Below, in pieces: positions 14,784 through 32,573 of a DNA stretch of 35,477 bases. Position 1 is the first letter of the stretch. Each line of letters opens with the position of its first letter. Origin of the DNA: Candidatus Woesearchaeota archaeon (lineage in GTDB: Archaea > Nanobdellota > Nanobdellia > Woesearchaeales > UBA10216); NCBI GenBank assembly GCA_018303115.1, contig JAGVYT010000029.1, positions 1-35,477 on the forward strand, written 5' to 3'. The notes beneath the pieces are model-generated. The model worked only from the letters and a program-made list of their open reading frames with translations. It made no database searches and had not been told where the DNA came from. A program made the translations under genes and the position numbers.

Positions 14784-14856
14784 AGCGAGGAGGGGGACTC
14801 GAACCCCCGAATAATCGCTCTGCAGGCGATCGCCTTGGCCGCTTGGCTACCCTCGC
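14784..14856 (-). tRNA. tRNA-Cys (anticodon GCA)
   Basis: Acceptor GCGAGGG/TCCTCGC, anticodon arm ATCGC-CTGCAGA-GCGAT, T arm GGGGG-TTCGAGT-CCCCC, U73. Confidence 0.93.
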
Positions 14857-14860
14857 ATAG

Positions 14861-14956
14861 CGGACCCGCAGGGATTTTCGCTTTGTTTCGAACCCTGGAC
14901 CTAAAGCTTTCTTTCGCTAGAAGGCTTTCGCTCTGTCCAAGCTGAGCTACGAGTCC
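14861..14956 (-). tRNA. tRNA-Arg (TCT) with two small insertions/introns (anticodon loop, 9 nt; T-loop, 12 nt)
   Basis: All stems pair: GGACTCG/CGGGTCC, GCTC/GAGC, AAAGC/GCTTT, CAGGG/CCCTG; anticodon loop is 16 nt (CTTCTAGCGAAAGAAA), T-loop 19 nt (TTCGAAACAAAGCGAAAAT). Confidence 0.82.
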
Positions 14957-15049
14957 ACATAATAAAGAAGCTGTTAGATGTTATTTAAAAGTATTGTTGT
15001 AGCTGGCGTTGTCCTGAGACTTTGCTTGCCCCTTTTGTAGCTCTCCTTC

Positions 15050-31408: not shown

Positions 31409-32404
31409 TTATTTTTTCTTTAAAACGTCAATTACGCTCAGCCCCTCGTGGGAGAGCAGTATAAGCCCTGTCAGGGTTGCAAGCAGGTCCTTGAACCTTA
31501 TTATCAAAGAGAGGGCAATGCCTACGCTTGGAACCGCAATCAGGCTGAACACAGAGAAATAGCCTGCTTCCTGCACGCCAAAAGCCGCTGGAATCGGGAT
31601 TATGGCTACAATGGAAGTTGCTATTATGCTGAGGAGTATTATTGTGACAGAAGCCTCGAAGCCTATGCTGAGAAGCGCCAGCTTATACTGAAGAAACGTA
31701 ACAGGCCAGCTTAGCATTGAAACAAGGACAGCCTGCACAACCCCTTTTTTTCTTAAGCGCAGAAACTCAACCATGGAATCCTCAACAGTTGCTATTTTTC
31801 CGGTAAGTTCCTTAAAGAAGCGCAGCCTGATTAGTGATGAAAAAACCCGGAAAATGAAGGAAATGGGCCCGAGACGGCTGATGAGGGTTGAGTAAAAGAC
31901 CACTAAAAAAAGGATGGCAAGCAGTGAAATGGTTAAGGCAAAGCCAGCAACCTGTTTTGGCAATGCAAAAAACAGAAGCATTGAAATGAGTATCACTGAC
32001 ATGAGCACGGCATCTATCGACATTCCAAGGGACATCTCTATCAAAACAGAGGAATAAGTGTGCCCGGCCTTAATTCCAAGCTTTTTCTTCAAAAGAAAAC
32101 CCCTGACAGGCTCGCCCCCAACCCTTGCAGCAGGAGTCAGGTAGCTTATTGCAGTCCCGATAATCCTGTACCTTAAAAGCAGCAAAAAAGGTACTTTGAG
32201 CCCCTGATACTTAAGAACAGCGGACCACCTCCAGGTGGAAATGGCATGGAGGACTGCTGTTGCCAACAGGAAAAGCGCAAGGTAAGAAAGCGAGAACTTT
32301 CTGAAAGGCTCAATGATTTGGTCAAAACCGGCAAACGCGAGAACAATGACAAAAAGCAAGACTCCGATAACAACTGACGCCGCTGCAACCAGTTTCTTCC
32401 TCAT
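31409..32404 (-). CDS. Flippase-like/LPG-synthase-TM (UPF0104-type) integral membrane protein
   Basis: Multi-TM; RYRIIGTAISYLTPAARVGGEPVRGFLLKKKLGI and PAAFGVQEAGYFSVF; start moved to MRKKLVAAASVV because the ORF-track start lies in a tRNA intron. Confidence 0.85.
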   Translation of the reverse strand: MRKKLVAAASVVIGVLLFVIVLAFAGFDQIIEPFRKFSLSYLALFLLATAVLHAISTWRWSAVLKYQGLKVPFLLLLRYRIIGTAISYLTPAARVGGEPVRGFLLKKKLGIKAGHTYSSVLIEMSLGMSIDAVLMSVILISMLLFFALPKQVAGFALTISLLAILFLVVFYSTLISRLGPISFIFRVFSSLIRLRFFKELTGKIATVEDSMVEFLRLRKKGVVQAVLVSMLSWPVTFLQYKLALLSIGFEASVTIILLSIIATSIVAIIPIPAAFGVQEAGYFSVFSLIAVPSVGIALSLIIRFKDLLATLTGLILLSHEGLSVIDVLKKK

Positions 32405-32427
32405 CTTTTTTGCCTTTAATATTTTAG

Positions 32428-32573
32428 CGAGCCTGCAGGGACTTTCAAAGGAAGGTGAGATTTTTGGCAGTTTGTTGCTAATCAACATACCTGTTATTTG
32501 TTCGCCTTCTTTTTCGAACCCTGGACCTAGAGGTTAGGAACCTCTCGCGCTGATCCAGCTGCGCCACAGGCTC
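32428..32573 (-). tRNA. tRNA-Arg (CCT) interrupted by a 71-nt T-loop intron (32442-32512)
   Basis: 5' part GAGCCTG..GCGC/GCGC..AGAGG-TTCCTAA-CCTCT..AGGTC-CAGGG-TTCGAA; 3' part T-CCCTG-CAGGCTC-G at 32441-32428; acceptor and T stems pair perfectly across the insert. Confidence 0.85.

Follow-up and report, generated by a model that had tools for sequence, protein, structure and literature searches.

Two short inserts in the only tRNA-Arg(UCU) gene found in a Woesearchaeal genome are very probably relaxed bulge-helix-bulge introns

A tRNA-Arg(TCT) gene on the minus strand (14861..14956) of a 35,477-nt stretch of Candidatus Woesearchaeota DNA, the whole of which we refer to as the window, carries two tiny inserts, and a preliminary description of the locus left two readings of them: minimal introns, or loop expansions that the tRNA retains. 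The gene and its unusual loops were borne out. The Rfam tRNA model RF00005 matched at 14956-14861 (44.6 bits, E=1.7e-6) with surplus bases in the anticodon loop and the T-loop, all stems pair, and our reading of the sequence gave, exactly as described, an anticodon loop of 16 nt, CTTCTA-GCGAAAGAA-A, and a T-loop of 19 nt, TTCGAA-ACAAAGCGAAAA-T. Taking out the 9 nt of GCGAAAGAA (14909..14917, minus strand; canonical position 37/38) and the 12 nt of ACAAAGCGAAAA (14875..14886, minus strand; position 59/60) restores 7-nt loops, as had been claimed, and leaves a standard 75-nt tRNA-Arg(TCT). From the analysis below we consider it very probable that both inserts are relaxed bulge-helix-bulge (BHB) introns, removed by the splicing endonuclease EndA and the ligase RtcB, in the sole tRNA-Arg(UCU) gene found.

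The main evidence comes from relatives, in many of which tRNA-Arg(TCT) adjoins the gene for topoisomerase VI A; the topoisomerase VI A of the window shares up to 85% identity with the enzyme of MAGs that bear the name Candidatus Woesearchaeota. Comparison of the orthologous tRNA-Arg(TCT) genes revealed near-invariant exons and inserts of 0-38 nt. Locus L019, identical at 73 of 75 exon positions, has at 37/38 a 12-nt intron, AGCGTTGAAGTA, whose CTTC/GAAG helix is perfect, and lacks an intron in the T-loop, and L020 (74/75) has a 38-nt intron at 37/38 together with a 14-nt T-loop intron that pairs as TTCG/CGAG. Introns at 37/38 with four pairs in strict register were also found in L046 (11 nt), L055 (15 nt) and L023 (16 nt), L025 and L056 have no intron at either site, and, as read by eye, L045, L054 and L060 carry D-arm introns. 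Because the exons stay constant while the inserts vary or are absent, we read both inserts as introns; since the fits of the single sequence are modest for the T-loop and weak for the anticodon loop, the case rests on the orthologues. These strongly support the first of the two earlier readings, minimal introns, and disfavour the second.

In a BHB motif each strand contributes four paired bases and then a 3-nt bulge, which is cleaved after its second base. The T-loop insert falls exactly into this register, with exon TTCG and intron CGAA forming four Watson-Crick pairs and with AA^A and AA^T as the 3-nt bulges; cutting at the two bulges leaves precisely TTCGAAT, a loop of 7 nt. When the T-arm was folded on its own, RNAfold returned exactly this TTCG/CGAA structure, and 1.9% of shuffles of the insert reached four Watson-Crick pairs in register; for a single sequence the fit is modest evidence, suggestive only, and it is joined by the T-loop intron of L020. 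Introns at the non-canonical position 59/60 are already known (PMC4090602).

The anticodon-loop insert takes a relaxed BHB register, CTTC/AAAG, with cuts at TA^G and AA^A, in which either three pairs and a C.A mismatch form, or four pairs with one A of GAAAG bulged. Its three pairs were reached by 25% of shuffles, so taken alone this register fit is weak. Folded by itself the insert has a competing, non-BHB structure, TTCT/AGAA, and the RNAfold minimum-energy structure of the whole precursor is not a cloverleaf. By its sequence, the 9-nt intron looks like a relaxed and shortened version of the perfect 12-nt intron of L019, minus three bases. Archaeal tRNA introns were given in 2009 as 11-175 nt long (PMC2738675), which places 9 nt below the published range; the open-licence literature yielded no paper that directly states the shortest archaeal tRNA intron. 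Nine nucleotides lie close to the geometric minimum of a BHB intron, which we reason to be 7 nt (one bulge, four helix and two bulge bases).

Strict (hBHBh') and relaxed (hBH/BHL) introns are distinguished by published definitions (PMC3978253). The T-loop intron has the bulges and the 4-bp central helix of the strict form, and at 37/38 the bulges fit but three of the four pairs form. On the outer side the T-stem and the anticodon stem serve as flanking helices, and on the inner side at most one pair is present, the inner side of the T-loop intron being the short loop CAAAG. As the inner flanking helix is missing, both introns are relaxed by this definition; their removal restores a canonical tRNA, they are present or absent among orthologues, and EndA and RtcB are encoded in the genome. 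The earlier view that inserts of this length look too small to form an ordinary BHB holds only in part: the 9-nt insert is relaxed, with its mismatch or bulged A, and the 12-nt insert has the 4-bp helix and both bulges in register, the inner flanking helix being the one element absent. No group I intron was matched by Rfam in the window, and the inserts, at 9 and 12 nt, are far smaller than a group I catalytic core of hundreds of nucleotides. A search of the window for protein-gene BHB introns gave one match, antisense to CTP synthase, that we judged to be due to chance.

The motif AGCGAAA does occur three times in the gene, as had been pointed out. We rejected it as a trace of intron copying or common origin: the copy at the junction of the D-stem and anticodon stem is exon sequence that L019 and L020 also have, and the copies in the inserts are explained by the pairing of their ends with exon TTCG and CTTC and by the likeness to the L019 intron.

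Evidence for T-loop introns extends beyond this gene. At the loci of relatives, T-stem-compatible closings with a 4-bp helix numbered 16 at the correct register versus 0-4 for any one register displaced by as many as four bases. When 286 genomes of the phylum were scanned with a T-loop-intron pattern, matches were obtained in 117. Among genomes of the same order or nearer, 98 of 170 had matches, compared with 26 when a backward control pattern was used, and in other orders the figures were 19 of 116 and 13, which places the enrichment within the order. Across 147 distinct matches, exon base 57 and its intron partner, which the scan pattern limited to a pyrimidine, were A-U in 91, G-C in 44, G-U in 8 and A-C in 4 (Fisher p = 1.6e-24, from counts that ignore relatedness). 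As judged from these matches, T-loop introns are widespread in this order. Our search of the open-licence literature found nothing specific on tRNA introns in Woesearchaeota.

The genome to which the window belongs (993.5 kb in 45 contigs, 96% complete) has at least a dozen tRNA genes with T-loop introns. At thirteen of its loci these were noted, often together with D-arm or anticodon introns. One such gene lies in the window itself, a tRNA-Arg(CCT) at 32429-32573 (minus strand) with a 71-nt T-loop intron at 32442-32512, that was picked up by neither ARAGORN nor the Rfam scan; the gene and the predicted start of an ORF at 31409-32488 overlap. Elsewhere in the genome, a second tRNA-His(GTG)-like gene (L015, G000:C27:16748-16835) has an extra stretch in its anticodon region, and an intron-less tRNA-His lies at L009. 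Within the window ARAGORN missed two tRNA genes and the Rfam scan one. The RF00005 search of the genome, a lossy first pass, missed tRNA-Arg(TCT) itself, so our census of its tRNA genes is incomplete. Hidden introns of this kind lead standard tools to overlook tRNA genes in these genomes, and to such tools the tRNA set of the genome would look incomplete.

Could the inserts instead be kept, in a functional tRNA with an expanded anticodon loop and T-loop? The TTCT/AGAA hairpin open to the anticodon insert would suit this reading. The nearest orthologues, however, have inserts of other lengths or none at each site in almost identical exons, the covariation of base 57 with the intron reflects a pairing that exists only in a precursor, and anticodon and T-loops of 16 and 19 nt are incompatible with undisturbed decoding and an undisturbed tRNA elbow; we regard retention as very improbable. 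Decay into a pseudogene with random inserts appears slightly less probable still. In its favour, ARAGORN did not call a tRNA-Arg(TCT) at 14861-14956 and the insert at 37/38 is an imperfect BHB, but the stems all pair, the exons are conserved and many further tRNA genes of this genome have similar inserts. The preliminary description had named a second intact tRNA-Arg(TCT) as a sign of a pseudogene; with the mature tRNA as BLAST query none was found in the 96%-complete genome, the matches being the gene itself, one tRNA-Arg(CCT) and short partial ones. AGA codons are common: the long genes of the window use AGA 86 times and AGG 150 times, and since the two make up 236 of 336 arginine codons, tRNA-Arg(TCT) is needed and should be essential.

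A different difficulty for the intron reading, and one that concerns the enzyme rather than the inserts, lies in EndA. The genome has one EndA gene (175 aa; PF01974, E=6.9e-28), whose best PDB match is Nanoarchaeum equitans 3iey_A (126.9 bits). This EndA is without an insertion of about 10 residues that the Aeropyrum pernix enzyme has at the place of the Crenarchaea-specific loop (CSL), and none of 30 Woesearchaeal sequences has an insertion of the CSL or ASL type. With PF01974 at E<=10 a convincing EndA was found in 38 of 40 genomes, about one per genome, and neither this search nor tblastn gave a convincing second subunit in those 38. The alpha4 type calls for a single alpha gene of about 180 aa, with no beta subunit, fused repeat, CSL or ASL, and the 175-aa EndA agrees with it. 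By published accounts, alpha-only enzymes lacking these loops handle relaxed motifs poorly (PMC6379350, PMC4033280), and a CSL or ASL is held to be necessary for relaxed BHB introns (PMC6379350, PMC12397907). That minimal introns would need a relaxed endonuclease, as had been suggested, is thus what the published rule leads one to expect, but only a single alpha-type EndA without a broad-specificity loop was found. Either the specificity of Woesearchaeal EndA exceeds that of its type or a partner has gone unrecognised; the intron repertoire predicts an EndA activity broader than that published for the alpha4 type. The variant in which the inserts are introns and EndA depends on an unrecognised beta subunit or helper, which does not exclude our main reading, draws on the same rule about the loops and on the (alpha-beta)2 enzyme of N. 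equitans (PMC6379350), the species that also supplies, with EndA chain A, the best PDB match. Against it stands the lack of a convincing second subunit by PF01974 and tblastn in the 38 of 40 genomes having EndA, searches that a highly divergent beta subunit could escape, and we consider this variant rather unlikely.

For the reading that we prefer, removal of both introns, processing can be outlined as follows. A TATA-like box, TTTTAAATA (14982..14990, minus strand), lies about 26-34 nt upstream of the 5' end of tRNA-Arg and is a putative promoter by its resemblance to the archaeal element. An intron-less tRNA-Cys(GCA) (14784..14856, minus strand; 60.3 bits) begins 4 nt downstream, an order that we also read by eye in L020, L023 and L025, and is probably co-transcribed with tRNA-Arg(TCT). 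The sole tRNA-Arg(UCU) would be transcribed as a precursor with two BHB-type introns, its anticodon stem lengthened by CTTC and the end of the first intron and its T-stem by TTCG and the CGAA of the second. EndA would cleave at the 3-nt bulges beyond each stem extension. At 37/38 this would free 9 nt from between TCTA and AGC, and at 59/60 it would free 12 nt from between TTCGAA and TCC. With the help of archease, RtcB would then ligate the exons into a normal 75-nt tRNA decoding AGA. The sequences themselves show the gene and its intron borders, the pairing with its covariation, gain and loss among relatives, the single copy and the presence of EndA and RtcB; that the cell actually cuts and rejoins the precursor, in which order the introns leave, and that EndA acts as a homotetramer without a partner, we infer.

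The genome encodes RtcB (515.5 bits), adjoined by an ORF that reads as archease-like, and its rtcB is itself interrupted by 31 nt at G000:C4:4779-4809 (minus strand; L149), the removal of which restores the protein motif HEGY-GFPIGG. This insert forms a strict BHB, with an AAGG/CCTT central helix, cuts at AT^A and TG^A, an inner helix of about 10 pairs and an outer flank of only 2 pairs. In the family, eight genomes have an intron at this first site and five at a second (GIGY-DVNCGV), with three having both and three none. These introns, found at ten loci, are 29-32 nt long and interrupt one conserved tyrosine codon or two, and taking them out restores the conserved motifs. The central helix has four Watson-Crick pairs in every one of them, and in L164 the helix reads AGGG/CCCT, a compensatory change. 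By these features the inserts look like pre-mRNA introns in the splicing ligase itself, and as such they support an active BHB splicing system in the lineage. Reports of introns in RtcB mRNA were not found in the open-licence literature. A genome of another order of the class (G253, locus L210) has, at index about 1500, a first-site rtcB intron with AAGG/CCTT and a probable second-site interruption. In G009 (L168) and G015 (L161) the pieces of rtcB lie about 1.4-1.5 kb apart in one long open frame, at residue 93-95, which suggests an intein close to the second intron site.

Set against known systems, the mechanism proposed here is familiar; what is new is the size of the introns, the lineage in which they occur and an endonuclease of a type that apparently does not match them. 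Among the closest systems is that of Thermoproteales (Crenarchaeota), which also have several BHB introns per tRNA at non-canonical positions including 59/60 (PMC4090602) and many intron-bearing tRNA genes per genome (PMC8450103). At 9 nt, the intron at 37/38 falls below the published 11-175 nt (PMC2738675), and crenarchaeal endonucleases are (alpha-beta)2 enzymes with a CSL (PMC6379350), whereas in this DPANN lineage only an alpha-type EndA was found. Micrarchaeum (ARMAN-2) likewise belongs to DPANN and has tRNA introns at a variety of positions with relaxed BHB motifs, but its epsilon-2 EndA is a three-unit protein of 390 aa with an ASL loop (PMC6379350, PMC12397907) and Woesearchaeal EndA has about 175 aa and no ASL. 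N. equitans, the source of the best structural match, has a beta subunit, and none was detected in Woesearchaeales. We give roughly even weight to the wider proposal that Woesearchaeales bear a Thermoproteales-like load of tRNA introns, some in the T-loop and some as short as 9 nt, taken out by a single-chain alpha EndA that lacks CSL and ASL, and that the rtcB mRNA of part of the order is also spliced by EndA and RtcB. If true, it would undo the accepted view that broad intron repertoires go with specialised EndA loops or subunits. In this lineage EndA specificity can be tested cleanly for dependence on a CSL, an ASL or a beta subunit. Splicing capacity would also be self-dependent, and possibly self-regulated, through rtcB mRNA in part of the order. 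The nearest precedent is cbf5, as of 2009 the only confirmed case of archaeal pre-mRNA splicing (PMC2738675): there too a BHB intron in the gene of an RNA-processing enzyme has been gained or lost among relatives, but while Crenarchaeota interrupt cbf5, Woesearchaeota interrupt rtcB, which would be a rare splicing enzyme whose own message needs splicing.
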